A stretch of DNA of 34,580 nt from Bacteroidota bacterium (GCA_027485465.1 JAIXRA010000156.1:1-34580), one strand, 5' to 3'. Shown: positions 24,890 through 34,580, numbered from the stretch's first letter. The notes: generated by a model not told the origin, from the sequence alone. A program made the numbers and translations.

Positions 24890-26112
24890 GCGTAGAAACC
24901 TCCGGCACAGTCTCCGCCGAGGCTTTGTTTGATTATTGTTACAATAGAGGCATTGGATGGGTCAGCAGTCGCCGACCCCATCGCAGCGGTTTGGCAAAGG
25001 ATGATTCGGAAAGGAAGGACCATGCCTCTGTTGCGTCCCATTTGAATCGGACTCAGCACTTGGTGGATCCCACCGCTCACCACAACCGGGTATGGACGCC
25101 TCAGGACCGAAATGGTTTTGTGGTGGCCCCCTTTGACTTGAAAAAACAAGCTGCGCTATGGATGGAGCCCGCCTTTGCCTGGACAGGTAACCAGGTTCCC
25201 CTTTCTTTGCTTGAGCCGGAATCTTGGTACAAGCAACCCTTGAGAGAATCCAAGGCGAGCGTTTGCCCCCAAAAGCATCATCAAAGTCAAGGTGAATTCT
25301 GCCAACACGTAGAGAAACTTATCGCCCGCCTGAAGAAGGGGTCCCTTGAGTCGAACGAACTCAGCAAAGTGGTCTGGTCCAGGACTTTGGAAGCTGAACA
25401 ACCCGAGGATCTTCGTCCCTATCCATTTTTTGAACAAATATGCCTGGCCTATCCAGAGGTTCATGCTGTTTTGTGTTATCACCCATCGATGGGATTGTGG
25501 ATTGGCGCCAGTCCTGAAATTTTGATTGAACGCCAAAAGGACCGGGTGTATAGCATGGCCCTGGCCGGGACAAGGGCGCTTCCGATCTTGGAGACCGACG
25601 AGGAACCCCGTCCTTGGAGACCCAAAGAGATTTTGGAACAGAGCTTGGTCCTACGTTACCTGCAACATCGGTTCCTGGGCCTGGGTCTGGCCCCCGAGAC
25701 GGGTCCAACCAACAACCTTCAATCTGGACCGGTTGAACACCTTCATACCGAGGTTCATGCGACGACTTCTTTGACGTGCTACCAGATAGCCATGGCGCTG
25801 CATCCCAGCCCAGCCATCGCAGGCGAGCCTTCGGAACAAGCGCTCGATTATCTATTGTTAAACGAACCCCATCAGCGTGAACTGTACGGGGGTTTTTGGG
25901 GTTTTTTGGACGCCGAAGGCTGTGGACGACTATCGGTCAATTTGCGATGCCTACGCTGGTACCCTGATCGGGTTGTTTTGTACGCTGGTGCCGGAATCCT
26001 GGCCGATTCGGATCCCGAAGCAGAATGGCAGGAAACCTGCCGCAAGGCATCGACCCTGCTCAATCTGCTAAAATCCAAGGAAGACTTCAACGAACTTCCC
26101 CTTCGTTCATGA
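24886..26112 (+). CDS. menF: isochorismate synthase
   Basis: LSKVVWSRTLE, WIGASPEILIERQ, MALAGTRALP, VEHLHTEVHA, ELYGGFWGFLD, LYAGAGILADSDPEAEW. ATGA overlap with the preceding stop. Confidence 0.92.
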   Translation: MSVETSGTVSAEALFDYCYNRGIGWVSSRRPHRSGLAKDDSERKDHASVASHLNRTQHLVDPTAHHNRVWTPQDRNGFVVAPFDLKKQAALWMEPAFAWTGNQVPLSLLEPESWYKQPLRESKASVCPQKHHQSQGEFCQHVEKLIARLKKGSLESNELSKVVWSRTLEAEQPEDLRPYPFFEQICLAYPEVHAVLCYHPSMGLWIGASPEILIERQKDRVYSMALAGTRALPILETDEEPRPWRPKEILEQSLVLRYLQHRFLGLGLAPETGPTNNLQSGPVEHLHTEVHATTSLTCYQIAMALHPSPAIAGEPSEQALDYLLLNEPHQRELYGGFWGFLDAEGCGRLSVNLRCLRWYPDRVVLYAGAGILADSDPEAEWQETCRKASTLLNLLKSKEDFNELPLRS

Positions 26113-27821
26113 AAAGCGACGCTTGGCTGCATCGTTCCCATTGGTCCATGCTGGCCACAAGCCTCCATCAAGCAGGGGTGCGTCGATTGGTCCTGTGCCC
26201 AGGCTCGCGCAGTGCACCCCTCACCTTGAGCCTGGTTCGAAGCGATCGGTTTGACTACGCGGTCAGCGTGGACGAGCGCTCGGCGGGTTTTGTAGCGCTT
26301 GGGATGGCCCTGCGACATCAAGAGCCAGTGGCCGTGGTTTGCACATCGGGTACCGCCTTGCTTAATCTGGGTCCTGCCGTCGCCGAAGCGTTTTTTCAAC
26401 GAATACCCTTGGTGGTTCTAAGTGCAGACCGACCCCTGGGTTCTGTGGGCCACCAAAGGGGGCAAGTCATCCATCAAAACGGAGTTTTTGGAGCGCATGT
26501 TCAGGGATCGCTCTGCTGGGTAAACCAGGATAACTCGACGGAGGCTCTTCAGGCATCCTGCGATGCCCTCCAAGCCATCCTCTATACGGCGTGTTACCAA
26601 AAGGGTCCGGTCCATATCAATGTTCCCTTTCAAGAACCCCTTTACGACCTACCTGCCGCTTTGCCCAAGCGGGCTTTGGAAAGCGATCTTTCATCGCAGG
26701 AACTTTTGACCATCCCAACCGAGTTCCGGAATCTTCCCAACGACCTCAAGGACGCTTGGAATAGCGCCTTGGTACGCCACCAAAAAATTTGGCTTTTGGC
26801 GGGAATGGGCACACCTGATTCCGAGTTGGACCGAATTCTTGAACAGCTTTTGGAACAGAACACCGCTTGCCAACTTTGGCGCGAAGACCTTTCCAACCTT
26901 CGCAGCGGCCGTCGCATCAACGAAATGGCATGGAATCTTGCCCTGCCGGAACCCCCGGATCTCTTGATTTCATGGGGCGGGCCCCTGGTTTCCAAAGCAT
27001 TGGGGCGTTGCCTGGCCCTGAATCCCCGCCTCTTGCACTGGCGAATCGACCCCAGAGGCGATCTCATTGATACCTACCACCGTTTGGACGGCGTTTGGGA
27101 CATGCAACCCTTGAGAGCCCTCCAAGCCCTTCTTGAGCTGCCACCCCCCTTTTCCTCCGACGATGTTCAAGGCGATGATGGGATGGATGATCAACCGCAA
27201 CATCATTTGTTGGAACAACAAATCCAAGAAAAATACAAGCAACTTCCCTACTCGGATTCTTGGGCGATGAACGCTTTGAAACCCCACCTGCAGGGCGCCC
27301 GTGTTCATTTGGGAAATTCAAGTTTGGTCCGAAAGTTTTTGGCCTTGCCATCCATCCCCGGTACTCCTGCCTTCGTTCATTGCAACCGGGGAACCAGCGG
27401 TATCGAGGGCAATGTGTCAACAGCCCTGGGGGATGCCTTGGTATCCAAGGGTTCCGAGGAGGTCTGGCTTTTGAACGGGGATTTGGCGACGGCTTACGAT
27501 GCCGGTGCTTGGCTGGTGGAGCCCCGGCCTTTGCTTCGGGTAGTCCTCTTTAACAACCAAGGCGGCGATATTTTTCGACAAATCCCCGGTTCCTCAACAC
27601 AGGCCGAATGCGAAACCTTGTTTGCTACTCCCAGGCCCATTCATTGGGAATCCTGGTGCACCGGCTATGGGCTCCCTTGGCGTCGGGTGGATTCCAAAGA
27701 AAGCTGGGAAGCCGGCTTGGCCTGGCTAAAGGCCCAAGAACAATCCGCCGTCTTGGAGGTTTCTACGTTGGTAGAAGCCAACCGAGAGGCGGAGAGGCAG
27801 CTGCGGCCCAACCAGCCTTAA
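26109..27821 (+). CDS. menD: 2-succinyl-5-enolpyruvyl-6-hydroxy-3-cyclohexene-1-carboxylic-acid synthase
   Basis: ThDP enzyme: VRRLVLCPGSRSAPLTLSL, SVDERSAGFVALGMA, CTSGTALLNLGPAVAEA, VVLSADRPLG, NRGTSGIEGNVSTALG, NNQGGDIFRQIPG. Start 26109 (ATGA overlap). Confidence 0.96.
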   Translation: MKSDAWLHRSHWSMLATSLHQAGVRRLVLCPGSRSAPLTLSLVRSDRFDYAVSVDERSAGFVALGMALRHQEPVAVVCTSGTALLNLGPAVAEAFFQRIPLVVLSADRPLGSVGHQRGQVIHQNGVFGAHVQGSLCWVNQDNSTEALQASCDALQAILYTACYQKGPVHINVPFQEPLYDLPAALPKRALESDLSSQELLTIPTEFRNLPNDLKDAWNSALVRHQKIWLLAGMGTPDSELDRILEQLLEQNTACQLWREDLSNLRSGRRINEMAWNLALPEPPDLLISWGGPLVSKALGRCLALNPRLLHWRIDPRGDLIDTYHRLDGVWDMQPLRALQALLELPPPFSSDDVQGDDGMDDQPQHHLLEQQIQEKYKQLPYSDSWAMNALKPHLQGARVHLGNSSLVRKFLALPSIPGTPAFVHCNRGTSGIEGNVSTALGDALVSKGSEEVWLLNGDLATAYDAGAWLVEPRPLLRVVLFNNQGGDIFRQIPGSSTQAECETLFATPRPIHWESWCTGYGLPWRRVDSKESWEAGLAWLKAQEQSAVLEVSTLVEANREAERQLRPNQP

Positions 27822-27881
27822 ACTTGCAGACCTGACCTTGAAACCTTTCAAAGACCTTTACAACCATCCTACCACCAAACC

Positions 27882-28709
27882 ATGAACCAACGCACCTACT
27901 CTTGGACTCCCTTGGCTGCCTTTGAAGAAATCAAATTTGAATTCTGCGAAGGGGTCGGCAAAATTTCGATTAACCGCCCTGAAAAGCACAATGCCTTTAC
28001 GCCGCTAACCGTTCAGGAAATGTCCCAGGCCATGGAAATGTGCCGGCAAGACGCCCGCATCGGCGTGGTCGTCCTGACGGGAGAGGGTGGCAAGGCCTTT
28101 TGCAGCGGAGGAGACCAAAGTGTGCGCGGTCACGGTGGCTATGTTGGCAAAGACCAAGTGCCCAGGCTCAATGTTTTGGATTTACAAATGCAAATTCGCC
28201 GCATCCCCAAACCGGTGATTGCGATGGTAGCGGGTTGGGCCATTGGCGGGGGCCATGTTCTGCATGTTGTTTGCGATTTGACGATTGCGGCCGAAAACGC
28301 TCGATTTGGTCAAACCGGCCCCAAGGTGGGCAGCTTCGACGGAGGATTTGGAGCCTCTTATTTGGCCCGCATTGTCGGGCAGAAAAAGGCCCGGGAAATT
28401 TGGTACCTCTGCGATCAATACAATGCAGCCGAAGCCTTGGAAATGGGCTTGGTCAACAAAGTAGTCCCCCTCGAAAGTCTTGAAGAGACCACCATGGAAT
28501 GGACCCGCAAAATCCTGACCAAAAGCCCCATCGCCCTGCGTATGCTCAAAGCCTCCTTCAATGCCGAATTGGATGGGCAGGCTGGTATCCAAGAACTGGC
28601 CGGGAATGCAACCCTTCTCTACTACCTGAGCGACGAAGCCAAGGAAGGCAAAAACGCCTTTATCGAAAAACGCGATCCCAACTTTGATTCTTTCCCCAAA
28701 TTCCCTTAA
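27882..28709 (+). CDS. menB: 1,4-dihydroxy-2-naphthoyl-CoA synthase
   Basis: [79 protein letters not shown]. Confidence 0.97.
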
Positions 28710-28718
28710 ATCCATCTT

Positions 28719-29351
28719 ATGTTACCAAAATTCCTTGGGGCAACCTTCCTGGGCATCACCTTGGCCTGCGCCTCCCCCTCCGATCCTACGGACCCTACCC
28801 GGTCCAATACCGTATCCCAACAAGCCCCTCAGAACACCATGCATTCAGCCGACCAACCCCTAGATTCCGGATTATCCGACCTTCGTTTCCACGACCTGAC
28901 TTTTGTGGACATTCACGGGAAGTCTCGCAATATGTCGGAATTTAAGGGTCGGTATGTTTTGATCGTTAACACGGCATCGGAATGCGGGTACACACCGCAA
29001 TACAAAGATCTGCAGGCGCTGCACCAACAATACGGTTCCAAAATCACAGTGATTGGCTTTCCCTGCAATGATTTTGGAGGCCAAGAACCCGGGGATGAAA
29101 AAGCGATTGAAGGTTTTTGTTCCAAAAATTACGGCGTTGATTTCCTGATGGCATCCAAGGTTAGCATCCAAGGCGAAAATCGGCATCCGGTTTATCGTTG
29201 GCTCATGAGTAAGTCCCTCAACGGCTTATCGGACGCTGTGGTGCGCTGGAATTTTACCAAATTTTTGGTAAACGGAGAGGGTCAATGGATCGCTACCTAC
29301 CCTTCATCGGTTTCGCCGATGGATGCCCAAATCACCAAGCAACTACCCTAA
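28719..29351 (+). CDS. glutathione peroxidase family lipoprotein (Cys type)
   Basis: LIVNTASECGYTPQYKDLQALHQQYGSKITVIGFPCNDFGGQEPG, VRWNFTKFLV; N-terminal lipobox-like GITLAC. Confidence 0.93.
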   Translation: MLPKFLGATFLGITLACASPSDPTDPTRSNTVSQQAPQNTMHSADQPLDSGLSDLRFHDLTFVDIHGKSRNMSEFKGRYVLIVNTASECGYTPQYKDLQALHQQYGSKITVIGFPCNDFGGQEPGDEKAIEGFCSKNYGVDFLMASKVSIQGENRHPVYRWLMSKSLNGLSDAVVRWNFTKFLVNGEGQWIATYPSSVSPMDAQITKQLP

Positions 29352-29375: not shown

Positions 29376-29399
29376 GCAGGTTCGAAAACCTGCTTTTTT
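29376..29399 (+). terminator. Rho-independent terminator
   Basis: GCAGGTT-CGAA-AACCTGC followed by TTTTTT, 24 bp after the glutathione peroxidase stop. Confidence 0.85.
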
Positions 29400-29408
29400 G
29401 CAGGGGCC

Positions 29409-29771
29409 ATGAGAACCCTGCTCCTTTGTTACGGCGCCCTTTTCTTTGCCCAGATCGGGAATCCCCTAGGGGCCCAATCCCCATCGCCCGGCGTACAGGG
29501 AACCCTGAACGTTTCGGCCCAAGTTCGATCTCTGCGCCAATTTTATTGGGTCCGCGAATTACCGCGAAGAGACGAAGTCCCCGGCCAAGGACGGATCGGA
29601 TATTTTGGCGGTGAGGCGAACATAACCCTTCTGTGGGGGGACAAATCGGATTCCAAAACCAAGGCTTTGAGCCTTCGGCCTAATTGCTGGCACAACTTAT
29701 TGGAATTCCCTTCCATGGATTCGTTGATCCGAAATCCCGTGAATGTTACGATTCAAATGGAAATCGAATGA
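29409..29771 (+). CDS. small secreted protein, candidate minor fimbrial subunit
   Basis: Signal peptide MRTLLLCYGALFFAQIGNPLGAQ; ends in alternating hydrophobic VNVTIQMEIE; first gene of the putative fimbrial locus. Confidence 0.6.
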   Translation: MRTLLLCYGALFFAQIGNPLGAQSPSPGVQGTLNVSAQVRSLRQFYWVRELPRRDEVPGQGRIGYFGGEANITLLWGDKSDSKTKALSLRPNCWHNLLEFPSMDSLIRNPVNVTIQMEIE

Positions 29772-30322
29772 AGCACCCTGCATTCCTATTGGTTACTTGG
29801 TTGGCCGTCTTGCTGAGCTACCTAGATCTGCATGCCCAAGGTGGGTCGGTGCAGACCCGCTTAATGAACGCCTACCGTGGTTTGATTTTTGACCAACCCG
29901 GCCAGCCCATTGTAAGCGGTAACCAACAATCGTACAATATCCAAATTCTGGACCCAAGGACCCTGGTTCTGGAGATTGCAGCTCCCCCAAGAACGCCGCT
30001 CATGGTTCAAATTCAATCCGTCCAACAGCTATGGAACCACGCCGTATCGCCAGCTGAATCCATCCCATTTGCATGGGAGGCGGCCTTTTGCAATGCAGGG
30101 ATCAACGACGAGCGAATGGCTAGACGGCAAGCCATTCCGTTGGACGTAAATCAAAATCAATTTCAGTTTGAAATGAACGATTATCAGTCCATCCCCGGTA
30201 ATCCGGAACCGATTGATGACAGAGTCAAAGCCTATTTGTATGTGTACGGTCGGTTGGGTCCCGTAGGATTGGTTACCCCCGGTTTCTACACCAACCCCAT
30301 CAATATCCAAGTATGGTACTAA
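29768..30322 (+). CDS. small secreted protein, candidate minor fimbrial subunit
   Basis: Start at MKHPAFLLVTWLAVLLSYLDLHAQ (ATGA overlap with upstream gene, not track start 29684). C-terminal VYGRLGPVGLVTPGFYTNPINIQVWY resembles the last strands of pilin/spore-coat-U-like subunits. Confidence 0.6.
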   Translation: MKHPAFLLVTWLAVLLSYLDLHAQGGSVQTRLMNAYRGLIFDQPGQPIVSGNQQSYNIQILDPRTLVLEIAAPPRTPLMVQIQSVQQLWNHAVSPAESIPFAWEAAFCNAGINDERMARRQAIPLDVNQNQFQFEMNDYQSIPGNPEPIDDRVKAYLYVYGRLGPVGLVTPGFYTNPINIQVWY

Positions 30323-30424
30323 TCAAAACGAACCTTCCACCGCCACCCATCAAAGGCCCTCCAATCTGCCAAGACCCAACCAACCCTCTCCTATACAACC
30401 ACCCAAAAAACCAAACCAAAAAAA

Positions 30425-31012
30425 ATGAAAAAGCATTCTTCTCTCCAAATCCTTATGAGCCTGAGTATGGCTGCTATCCTGTTGACGGTCAACAACCTAT
30501 ACGCCCAAAATACAGGCGTTATCAATACCAACCTCAATGTTGGAGCCACGGTCCTTGCCCAGCTCAAATTAACCAACAACTCCGATGTTCAATTCGGCAA
30601 TCTTTCAGCCACCACACCGGGCCATGTTTTTCTTTCACCCACCGGTAGCGGTCACACCAATACCGGGGTTAGCACTTCGGTAGGCAAATTCACCGTAGAG
30701 GGATCGACCAGCGGATCCGTCAAGGTTACCTGGCCTGCCAACATTGTTCTTAACTCGTCGATTGGATCCAATACCTTGATTTATAACCTGCAGGTTAATG
30801 GAAACGGCAGCGATCTGGCTTCTGGTTCCACCATTCTTGGAACAGGTGGATTGGGCGTAGCCGCAACAGCCGATGTTACGCTGGTCGCTGGAAAATACTA
30901 CCTCTATGTGGGCGGAAAAGTAGGCGGAACAGCCGGCAGTGCCGCCAATCTGAACGCCCAAGCAACGGGCGTTTATGCGGGGATTGCCAATTTCCGTGTT
31001 GAGTATAATTGA
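30425..31012 (+). CDS. DUF4402-type secreted protein, candidate major pilin subunit
   Basis: Signal peptide; NTGVINTNLNVGATVLAQLKLTNNSDVQFGNLSA...YYLYVGGKVGG...TGVYAGIANFRVEYN matches the DUF4402 pattern (early 'xxFGxl', terminal 'GxYxxxxxxxVxYN'). Confidence 0.75.
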   Translation: MKKHSSLQILMSLSMAAILLTVNNLYAQNTGVINTNLNVGATVLAQLKLTNNSDVQFGNLSATTPGHVFLSPTGSGHTNTGVSTSVGKFTVEGSTSGSVKVTWPANIVLNSSIGSNTLIYNLQVNGNGSDLASGSTILGTGGLGVAATADVTLVAGKYYLYVGGKVGGTAGSAANLNAQATGVYAGIANFRVEYN

Positions 31013-31024
31013 CATAGCCATCAT

Positions 31025-31050
31025 CCCCCTCCTCGGTTGGGCGGAGGGGG
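31025..31050. promoter_or_regulatory. Intercistronic GC-rich hairpin between pilin-like and chaperone genes
   Basis: CCCCCTCC (31025-31032) and GGAGGGGG (31043-31050): perfect 8-bp stem, 10-nt loop, no strong U-tract after it. Confidence 0.65.
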
Positions 31051-31096
31051 ACTGATTTTGTTCAAAACCTCCATCTTCTTTCAAAAAATCCTATCA

Positions 31097-31963
31097 ATGA
31101 AAAAGAGCATAGGGATCCTTCTCTTCTACTCGGTGTCTCACTGTTGCCATGCCCAGGTTAGCATCGCGCCAACGGGACTTCTTTTGGACGGGCGAGGCCA
31201 AGGCGTCATGTACATTGGCAATACCGGCAGCCAACCCCAAGAGGTTCGGATCCAATTTCAATTTGGTTACCCCGGACAAGATTCGATGGGGGCCCTACAG
31301 ATGATCTACGGGGATACCATCCGTGAAAAATCGTACGGATTGGGTCCTTCGATAAAAGCCTATCCCTCCGCCTTTACCCTGCAACCCCAATCCCAACAAA
31401 TGGTGAGACTACTCCTCAAAGAACGCCTATTCCCTCAAGATGGGCTTTATTTCTCGAGGATAAAAATCAACTCCCAAACAGCCGTTCCAGATGCTGGAAC
31501 GGTCGATACCAGCTCCGTTGGAACCCAGGTTTCTTTTCGTTTTGAACAATTCCTTCCTGTATTTTACCAACAGGGGAAATTGGAATCTGCTCTCAAAATC
31601 GCTAACCGGACTCTTCAAGCGGATTCCGGAAACGGACTGCTGAATTTTGAATATCAGTGTTCAAGCCATACGCCCTATCTGGGCCGTCTTCGTTACCGTC
31701 TCTTCTCAGAATCGGTCGTGAAGACGCTCTCGATTGGAAAGGATAGGCCTGCCGTCAGCGAACAGGATACGTCATGGAGAGAAATGGAAATAGCCCTTTA
31801 TTTTGAAGGCAACCGTCGTTTCCATTTACCATGGCCTCAATCACTCAGCCCCGGTAAGCATTGCCTAGAATTGGAATTTAGCAAGGGCCGAAGTGATTAC
31901 CCCGCTTTAACTTATGGAATTTCTCCCGATTATCGGGAGAGGGTTTGCTTTGATCTGCCATGA
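31097..31963 (+). CDS. PapD-like periplasmic fimbrial chaperone
   Basis: Signal peptide from MKKSIGIL; VSIAPTGLLLDGRGQGVMYIGNTGSQPQEVRIQFQFGYP, AYPSAFTLQPQSQQMVRLLLKERLFPQDGLYFSRIKINSQ pattern of a chaperone N-terminal Ig domain. Confidence 0.75.
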   Translation: MKKSIGILLFYSVSHCCHAQVSIAPTGLLLDGRGQGVMYIGNTGSQPQEVRIQFQFGYPGQDSMGALQMIYGDTIREKSYGLGPSIKAYPSAFTLQPQSQQMVRLLLKERLFPQDGLYFSRIKINSQTAVPDAGTVDTSSVGTQVSFRFEQFLPVFYQQGKLESALKIANRTLQADSGNGLLNFEYQCSSHTPYLGRLRYRLFSESVVKTLSIGKDRPAVSEQDTSWREMEIALYFEGNRRFHLPWPQSLSPGKHCLELEFSKGRSDYPALTYGISPDYRERVCFDLP

Positions 31964-31973
31964 TTGAACCTTC

Positions 31974-34580
31974 ATGACCTTTCCTGAATGTTTAGCCTTG
32001 TGCTTTGCGACCATATCAAGTCAAAGCGACTCCTTGATCTCCTCGCCTTCCTTTCAGGATGCCGTGGAATACCAAGCCTTCACCCGTTACTCAGGGTACA
32101 GCGTAGGTTGGCTGACGATCCTCAAAGCAGGGAACCACTGTTGGTTTCCGCTCAAAGATTGGTTGGATCAGAGTGGGTTCACCTATCAAAAATTCATTAT
32201 CAATCGAGGCCCCAATGCCCTTGATACGATTCTTAAGGGGTATTCACCCCTACGATTCAGGCGATGGGAGGCCAAGCGTTTTGATTTTCAATCCGGCACC
32301 AAAATAAATGCGACGCAAAACCTGATCATCGATGATCGTTCATGCGTTTGGGTCAACGGTTTATGGATTGAAAAAGAGTACGGATTGACGGCTCGCTTTA
32401 GAGAACAGGCCTTGGAACTCGATTTTGAGGGAACGACCTTGGCGCCGGTACGTCAGTGGTTTGATTATACCTCCCGTTGGAGTAAATCGACCACGAAGAC
32501 CCCCGCGATGTCGAACCATAACATTGGAAAAACAGAACGCACGAGCCTTTCTAGCAAGTCCTTCGAAATTTCTACATGGACAGGGAGCTATCATATCAAC
32601 CTAGAAGATGCTTCTTTCCTAGCCGCCCTCCAATGGGAGGCTGTGGGCCATGCCGGATTCATTGGATTCAGGTTATTCGGATCGGTAACGACGGCCTTGA
32701 ACCGATTGGACCTTGCCTGGCCGGGCCTGGAGCTGCAATGGGCCTGGGGTCGCCAACAACAAATCAATTGCTTGATTTCTCCCTCCTCGGTCTCGGGTCC
32801 ATGGAAAATTTCGGGTAGCAACTCCCTTATGAACCGAACCATTGACTTTGATGCGCCTTCTGGAATCCATTCACGACGGTGGCATCCTCCGGATGGACTG
32901 GCCGAATGGTCCCTAAACCACGGAGCGACCGTCCCTGCCGCCTCCAAAAAACCAATCATCGTTCAACTTCTTCCTGGAAACAACCGAATAGACTACCGTC
33001 GTCTAAATCCATGGGGAGGGATTTCAAATCATCGATTGATGTGGAATATACCAATGGGTATGATTCCGCCAAAACGTTGGAATTACGGGTATGAAATTTC
33101 CGATAGGTTCAAGACGAGCGGATTCTTGGGTTACGGCCTCCATCCCTTCCTAAGTCTGCGTACAGAAATTATACTAGAGCCCAGGAGTGAAGCACCAAGG
33201 CAAGCTGACTGGATGTTAACATGGGCCGGAGCATGGACAGCGGGGCGATTCATGAATGGCCAAACAAGCTGGACCCTCACCAACACCCTGCAGCAGTTTC
33301 AACAACAAGTTCATCTCCATCTCAGCAACCATTTCCAAGGGACTCTGAGGTATCAAAGGAGGCACCTTCAGCGGGCTTACCGTACGAGCCCTGGGTTAGG
33401 ACCCGATTGGACTCCACGGGAGCATTTGGACTTCCTTGCTCAATGGAGCCTCCCAAAAGGATATGGGCTCAAAATGCTCCGCTTGGAAACCCCGCTTCTG
33501 GCGCCAAAGCGAGGATTGTTCGATCGAAAGAATGCGCATTGGCTCATGCAATTTGAAACATGGGGACAACTTTGGTTTTGGAGCTTACCTGAAGGAAGGC
33601 TATCCTGGCAGGGTCGAATTCAACCCAAGCGATCTCCCGCCTCCTTGGTGTACCAAATTACCGGTCAACGACAAGGCTGGCAGGCCTTCTTGCAATGTCA
33701 TTTGCGCTCGGGTCATCATTTCAATGTTACCTATTCAACTTCCAATCCCATAGCATCCCCCGGCCCTTATGCGAATACCATTCATTCAACCTGGTCCTTT
33801 GAGTGGAAATGGATAGGCCTTCAAGGAAGTAGAGCTCTCCGTGTCAGCCTCCATGATCAAAAGACACGCTGGGAGTGCAAAGGACAATTGATGGTACCGA
33901 ATCAACCAAACCAATACCCGCTCATGGCCGCCCATGGCTTGTCCTTCATACACCTTGAATGGTTTGAAGATCGAAATCATAACAAAGACAAAGACCCCGA
34001 TGAAGCCGTTTTGGATGCCACCGGGGGATTTGAGGTCCCTGCCGGCATCCCTTATCAAATGATGGACAATGGTTCAGCACTCCTCGGCCCCTTTCCGAAC
34101 CACAGCCGACTACGAATACGATTAACACCTCAAACCATGCTCAGTCCTGGTTGGGTAAGCGATCACAAGGAATTGGAATTGGTCTCGCTACCAAACTCCA
34201 CGGCCAAATACCGTATCGCCCTGTTGCGTAGCCGTCAAATCTCAGGGACCGTCCAATTTCAAATCCCCACCAAGGAACGACCCCCAAGACCCCCTGGCAG
34301 CGAAGCAGGCGGGATTCTGATTTATGCCCTTCGATTGGAAAAGGATGCCTTTCAATCCATCGATTCCATTCTCCGTAATAGGGCGTCGTTAGGCTTGTTG
34401 TATGATTCGAACAACGCCCAAAAAACACGAACCTTGAGCGATGGTTACTTTGAATTCAATGATTTGACCCCAGGCATTTATTTGGTAGGGCCCCTCCTAA
34501 AGCAGGATGGACTGCCTTATCAATGCCGCCCACAGATGATGGACCTCCGCCAGAAGGAAACGGGCGAAGCGGTGTTTCGA
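31974..34580 (+). CDS. large usher-like / outer-membrane assembly protein, C-terminus truncated by window edge
   Basis: ATG at 31974, 869 codons read without a stop to position 34580; MTFPECLALCFATISSQS signal-like N-terminus; LEWFEDRNHNKDKDPDEAVLDATGGFEVPAG (usher-like 'D.N.N...D.dE' strand) and a carboxypeptidase-regulatory/SdrD-B-like segment TRTLSDGYFEFNDLTPGIYLVGP. Directly follows the PapD-like gene. Confidence 0.65.
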   Translation, partial: MTFPECLALCFATISSQSDSLISSPSFQDAVEYQAFTRYSGYSVGWLTILKAGNHCWFPLKDWLDQSGFTYQKFIINRGPNALDTILKGYSPLRFRRWEAKRFDFQSGTKINATQNLIIDDRSCVWVNGLWIEKEYGLTARFREQALELDFEGTTLAPVRQWFDYTSRWSKSTTKTPAMSNHNIGKTERTSLSSKSFEISTWTGSYHINLEDASFLAALQWEAVGHAGFIGFRLFGSVTTALNRLDLAWPGLELQWAWGRQQQINCLISPSSVSGPWKISGSNSLMNRTIDFDAPSGIHSRRWHPPDGLAEWSLNHGATVPAASKKPIIVQLLPGNNRIDYRRLNPWGGISNHRLMWNIPMGMIPPKRWNYGYEISDRFKTSGFLGYGLHPFLSLRTEIILEPRSEAPRQADWMLTWAGAWTAGRFMNGQTSWTLTNTLQQFQQQVHLHLSNHFQGTLRYQRRHLQRAYRTSPGLGPDWTPREHLDFLAQWSLPKGYGLKMLRLETPLLAPKRGLFDRKNAHWLMQFETWGQLWFWSLPEGRLSWQGRIQPKRSPASLVYQITGQRQGWQAFLQCHLRSGHHFNVTYSTSNPIASPGPYANTIHSTWSFEWKWIGLQGSRALRVSLHDQKTRWECKGQLMVPNQPNQYPLMAAHGLSFIHLEWFEDRNHNKDKDPDEAVLDATGGFEVPAGIPYQMMDNGSALLGPFPNHSRLRIRLTPQTMLSPGWVSDHKELELVSLPNSTAKYRIALLRSRQISGTVQFQIPTKERPPRPPGSEAGGILIYALRLEKDAFQSIDSILRNRASLGLLYDSNNAQKTRTLSDGYFEFNDLTPGIYLVGPLLKQDGLPYQCRPQMMDLRQKETGEAVFR

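Follow-up and report, generated by a model that had tools for sequence, protein, structure and literature searches.

The window, the whole 34,580-nucleotide stretch of Bacteroidota DNA analyzed here, is contig C9 of a 1.70-Mb genome that is 98% complete. Five co-directional ORFs occupy positions 29409 to 34580 on the + strand, directly past an intrinsic terminator, which bears out the layout given in the initial annotation. The features are as follows.

29376 to 29393, + strand: intrinsic terminator with a 7-bp stem and a T6 tail, between a glutathione-peroxidase-like gene (upstream) and the operon.
29409 to 29771, + strand: gene 1 (p1), a small secreted subunit-like protein of 120 aa, with first-in-operon homologues across the family.
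29768 to 30322, + strand: gene 2 (p2), a small secreted pilin-like subunit of 184 aa, conserved in its operon position.
30425 to 31012, + strand: DUF4402 protein of 195 aa, a probable pilin subunit with PF14352 and the C-terminal motif described below.
31097 to 31963, + strand: PapD-like periplasmic chaperone of 288 aa, assigned by PapD_N (E = 0.037) and the family profile.
31974 to 34580, + strand: diverged outer-membrane usher, an ORF cut by the contig end after 869 of its 878 aa.

The p1 and p2 genes overlap by 4 bp (ATGA), and a gap of 10 bp separates the chaperone gene from the large ORF. Terminator-like sites in the region are no more numerous than in shuffled sequences; the hairpin at 29376 to 29393, however, is intergenic. 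Sequence reading of the upstream part (26025 to 29351) indicates MenD- and MenB-like genes of menaquinone synthesis and the glutathione-peroxidase-like gene, which have no relation to the operon. The large ORF is completed by 9 further residues on contig C155, which is joined through a 157-bp overlap with 1 mismatch. The next gene is purE on the opposite strand (convergent), as in genomes G003 and G004, and no further subunit or adhesin genes were found downstream of the usher on C155 or in these two genomes. Because the usher ends 9 residues on and is followed by the convergent purE, continuation of the operon past the contig end is ruled out, and the earlier expectation that an adhesin or extra subunits lie beyond the window had to be abandoned. 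Other genomes of the window's genus share this gene set, with the ORFs intact where contigs allow. In comparison with the nearest genome, dN/dS was 0.09–0.32 across all five genes, the usher showing the highest value among the genes tested (0.32). These values indicate purifying selection, and the five genes are therefore maintained.

The DUF4402 protein of the window matched Pfam PF14352 above the cut-off (E = 3.6e-6); to our knowledge, this is a family without known function. The protein ends in TGVYAGIANFRVEYN, in which Gly occupies −14, Tyr occupies −2, and hydrophobic residues alternate, and it passes the pilin motif, defined as Gly at −14, Tyr or Phe at −2, and hydrophobic residues at −4, −6, and −8. 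The motif was present in 36 of 59 DUF4402 proteins, which are related sequences and not a set of independent events, and in 0 of 275 control proteins from outside the clusters. The strict motif also ends 38 of the 45 p1 homologues. It is absent from the C-terminus of the window p1, which is shortened (120 aa versus about 170 aa in homologues), and in the window p2, which ends in PGFYTNPINIQVWY, it is shifted by one residue. When DUF4402 was compared with the E. coli pilins by hhalign, the probability was 50%, and mainly the signal peptide and the N-terminus were aligned; the pilin case for DUF4402 therefore rests on the C-terminal motif. An HMM search of the PDB with the DUF4402 profile gave no convincing chain match. 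The distribution of the motif favors the view, already taken from the sequence at the outset, that DUF4402 proteins are pilin-like and stand in place of classical pilins. The window operon carries one DUF4402 gene only, together with the diverged p1 and p2; most operons of relatives encode several motif-bearing subunits each.

PapD_N in the window chaperone fell below the Pfam cut-off (E = 0.037) and recurred in 9 of 18 chaperone homologues (best E = 0.0027). A profile of 51 family sequences, compared with seven E. coli K-12 chaperones by hhalign, matched the FimC-type proteins across the N-terminal domain (E = 1.7e-5), and the reading of 31097 to 31963 as a PapD-like chaperone is upheld by this homology. 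Arg8 and Lys112, the diagnostic pair of PapD that anchors the subunit C-terminus, are unconserved at the aligned positions of the family, and an HMM search of the PDB with the chaperone profile gave no convincing chain match.

The usher family as a whole was more readily placed. Its profile (35 sequences) matched the seven E. coli K-12 ushers with an hhalign E of 5.4e-12 over 513 columns, and PF00577 was matched by 2 of 12 members (E = 6e-4); an HMM search of the PDB with the usher profile gave no useful match. The AlphaFold2 model of a family member from a relative (L104, 1130 aa) has a pLDDT of 80.6 and shows an N-terminal domain (residues 28–147), 24 barrel strands (counted by hand from the DSSP list), a plug inserted after the sixth and before the seventh of them, as in FimD, a pair of C-terminal domains, and a helical TPR tail. 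FimD and PapC were the top Foldseek matches of this model in the PDB (E = 3.6e-27). Profile and model together place the wider family among the 24-strand ushers of the FimD/PapC type. In a sample of 397 genomes of the phylum, 90 carried the family, representing 44 of the 173 genera, and the order p1, p2, DUF4402, chaperone, usher is common to many genera. This neighborhood survey shows the predicted co-occurrence of the DUF4402, chaperone, and usher genes to be conserved across the phylum. Large proteins with type IX secretion system (T9SS) tails are encoded directly upstream of p1 in many operons of relatives (as in L031, L032, L033, L108, and L120; Por_Secre_tail E = 7e-8 in L108:506-6085), and such a protein is absent directly upstream of the window p1.

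Here, we propose that the locus is very probably a chaperone–usher pilus operon of a Bacteroidota type. The DUF4402 protein, p1, and p2 would be small Sec-exported subunits resembling incomplete Ig-like pilins, which the PapD-like chaperone would cap in the periplasm and deliver to the usher. The usher, with its 24-strand barrel, plug, and periplasmic end domains, would polymerize and export them by donor-strand exchange to form a thin fiber. Alternatively, the operon might export and display single surface proteins through an usher-like pore, as a secretion system that forms no polymeric fiber. The window has only one DUF4402 gene, its two other subunits are diverged, p1 lacks the motif, and a large T9SS-tailed protein is encoded beside the cluster in relatives, all of which would suit such a system. 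Most relatives, however, encode several subunits with the motif in each operon, and the usher architecture is complete with its plug. Both features point to polymerization, and we regard export without a fiber as quite unlikely.

In relatives, the pilus operon is extended by genes of a flagellar-type motor. A rotor gene was found in 8 of 17 genomes of the window's family, including two of the window's genus (G005 and G006). Where contigs allow, the operon consists of the subunits, the chaperone, a long usher, a protein of 610–690 aa, a TPR lipoprotein, MotA, and MotB, and the usher and motor genes lie on the same strand and often overlap. The 610–690-aa protein is a putative FliF–FliG fusion. 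As read off the alignment, its signal peptide is followed by a periplasmic part bearing the FliF motif RGDxIxVxxxxFP, and a single membrane span links this part to FliG in the cytoplasm. The region of the RGD-I-V-FP motif matched E. coli FliF 374–437 weakly (hhalign probability 42%, E = 2.6e-4), and the FliG part matched Pfam FliG_C, FliG_M, and FliG_N above their cut-offs and FliG in the PDB at E = 2.8e-27. The MotA and MotB domains were also above the Pfam cut-offs. Asp32 of MotB, Pro173, Pro222, and a basic residue at position 90 of MotA, and Arg281 of FliG are conserved. FlhA, the flagellar export gate, was absent from all 17 genomes of the window's family (0/17; four positive control genomes), so that the motor genes there do not belong to a flagellum. 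The arrangement of a TPR-tailed usher followed by the FliF–FliG rotor, TPR lipoprotein, MotA, and MotB occurs often in the window's family, Balneolaceae, Cyclobacteriaceae, Bacteroidales, and Ignavibacteriae, with examples in Balneola, Aliifodinibius, Algoriphagus marincola DSM 16067, and Bacteroidales and Ignavibacteriae genomes. The Algoriphagus strain, which is cultured, has both a motor-linked (L120) and a motor-less operon (L108).

Several variants of these operons were also observed. At five loci (L195, L196, L197, L198, and L199), the FliFG fusion belongs to a second kind of motor operon, which lacks both chaperone and usher and further encodes a secreted protein of 240–390 aa ending in an outer-membrane-like strand, a TPR protein, MotA, and MotB; the motor module therefore seems portable between two outer-membrane partners. 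In the second copy of the locus in genome G166 (L098), the TPR-tailed usher is followed by a shortened rotor protein of 343 aa matching the FliF-like part, and no MotA or MotB was found near this usher. Two ushers of about 1060 aa (L090 and L097) also match a MotB/OmpA-type model (E of about 1e-4 to 1e-5), and perhaps carry a fused peptidoglycan-binding anchor.

The presence of the TPR tail on the usher coincides with that of the motor. Every TPR-tailed usher for which downstream sequence is available is followed by a rotor gene (24 of 24; 19 distinct ones after removal of five loci present twice), whereas no rotor, MotA, or MotB gene was found downstream of 60 tail-less ushers, each with at least 3 kb of downstream sequence. 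The chaperone tree shows 9 changes of the tail/motor state, of which at least 7 fall on well-supported branches. That a tail at the outer membrane and a motor in the inner membrane were repeatedly gained or lost together is strong evidence that the two are coupled, as far as gene content can indicate it. The motor genes could instead be mere neighbors unrelated to the usher, as the FliFG–TPR–MotAB operons that exist without an usher, beside a different outer-membrane-like protein, might suggest. We consider this very unlikely in view of the association of tail and rotor (24/24 versus 0/60) in several classes, of the 7 or more changes seen on the tree, and of the co-directional, often overlapping genes. 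Because the motor is encoded in the same operon and is matched by the TPR tail, the usher of these relatives is probably physically coupled to an ion-driven rotor in the inner membrane.

A motor-driven chaperone–usher pilus is thus our leading hypothesis for the relatives, and functional coupling of the motor to the usher is likely. MotAB would turn the FliFG ring by ion flow, and the TPR lipoprotein and the TPR tail of the usher may pass motion or energy from the ring to the usher. The output could be rotation of the pilus, powered export, or movement of a surface protein. A broader version of this proposal is evenly poised in our judgment: in several classes of the Bacteroidota group, MotAB and FliF–FliG would rotate the pilus or power export via the TPR parts, and the window would have reverted to an unpowered pilus.

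The window locus itself lacks the motor genes, p2b, and the usher TPR tail. No motor was found elsewhere in its genome; the matches to the MotA/ExbB family lie in ExbB/ExbD operons, which rules them out as a detached motor. On the chaperone tree, the window clade is nested with motor-bearing members of the family (support 97/92). Most likely, the window lineage lost the motor and the tail, after which its usher diverged, leaving what would be an unpowered version of the pilus. Because the window clade sits on a long chaperone branch (2.08), loss is likely, but not proven, relative to separate ancestry. The copy in the window might also be a decaying, non-working remnant of a motor-linked pilus locus, given the missing motor, p2b, and usher tail, the shortened p1, the long branch of the lineage, and the usher dN/dS, the highest of the genes tested. 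The ORFs are nevertheless intact in genomes of the genus where contigs allow, and the dN/dS range of 0.09–0.32 makes decay highly improbable.

The usher of the window is the most diverged component. No Pfam domains were found in the large ORF, its clade is all but confined to the window's genus, and it is ~17% identical to the long ushers. It joins the wider usher family by profile in the C-terminal region only (hhalign E = 1e-8), and the profile of its clade alone did not match the E. coli ushers. The model was built on a distant alignment that left out whole-genome loci of the same genus, and has an overall pLDDT of 56 and a pTM of 0.36; the barrel is mostly below 60, and the N- and C-terminal domains are at about 70–86. 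The top ten Foldseek matches of this model were FimD and PapC, a result that the distant alignment may impose. On the basis of its position, length, end domains, and family, the large ORF is assigned as an usher, with a presumed barrel. The original description of a highly diverged usher at 31974 thus holds for the family match and the confidently modeled end domains, and its barrel is modeled with low confidence. That an unrelated outer-membrane protein came to occupy the place of the usher by chance would accord with the lack of a profile match to the E. coli ushers, the low-confidence barrel, and the narrow distribution of the clade, but is very unlikely in view of the usher position after the chaperone, the end domains at pLDDT of about 70–86, and the C-terminal homology (E = 1e-8).

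Taken as a whole, the locus is best explained, with high probability, as a Bacteroidota chaperone–usher pilus operon, probably coupled to a motor in relatives, with the motor most likely lost in the window lineage. The Bacteroidota-specific variant put forward initially is supported, and none of the results obtained here refutes it.

Like the Fim, Pap, CupE, and Csu pili (of the archaic, alternative, and classical kinds), the system has a chaperone, an usher, and several small, putatively Ig-like subunits with a pilin C-terminus, and the model of the relative's usher shares both the barrel of 24 strands and the position of the plug, between strands 6 and 7. It differs from them in its Bacteroidota and Balneolota hosts, its DUF4402 subunits, very low sequence identity, a chaperone without Arg8/Lys112, usher end domains of the CarboxypepD_reg/SdrD_B type, and, in many relatives, the TPR tail and the motor. 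Archaic pili have been recorded from proteobacteria, cyanobacteria, and Deinococcota (PMC10104325). The type V fimbriae of Bacteroidales (Mfa1/FimA of Porphyromonas) are likewise Bacteroidota surface fibers with a proposed strand-based polymerization, but are built from precursors matured step-wise, and in P. gingivalis neither chaperones nor ushers are known (PMC5789003). The chaperone–usher route is hardly documented in the window's phylum, and the window operon is a variant of it.

The motor of the relatives resembles the flagellar motor (FliF, FliG, MotA, and MotB) in its putative FliF–FliG fusion, in MotAB, and in the conserved MotB Asp32 and FliG Arg281. In contrast to a flagellum, the operons hold the motor core only, FlhA is missing from the window's family, and the TPR lipoprotein and TPR-tailed usher take the place of rod, hook, and filament. 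The T9SS and gliding machinery (GldLM and the SprB adhesin) is also an ion-driven motor of the 5:2 type in Bacteroidota tied to outer-membrane secretion, and large T9SS-tailed proteins adjoin many of the relatives' operons; here, however, MotAB and FliG homologues are found, not GldLM, and an usher pore, not the T9SS translocon. Comparative reviews have mentioned genes resembling those of the flagellar motor in gliding Bacteroidetes. In the open-access papers searched, no description of a motor-linked usher was found, and the motor genes in the operon of the closest relatives suggest a previously undescribed motor-linked pilus.

If confirmed, the motor-linked form would be a new kind of machine. 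Chaperone–usher secretion is generally considered to work at the outer membrane without an external energy source, and ushers and flagellar-type motors that appear and disappear together would break this rule. Algoriphagus marincola DSM 16067 has both forms, and the coupling is therefore testable in a cultured strain. The present analysis proposes a role for DUF4402 and extends chaperone–usher pili to a phylum one of whose members, P. gingivalis, has been noted to lack them (PMC5789003). The role of rotor proteins in non-flagellated species (about 11% of them) has been raised as a question (PMC12199754), for which a motor-linked usher would offer a candidate function. A motor-linked pilus would also be a possible addition to the known modes of bacterial movement.
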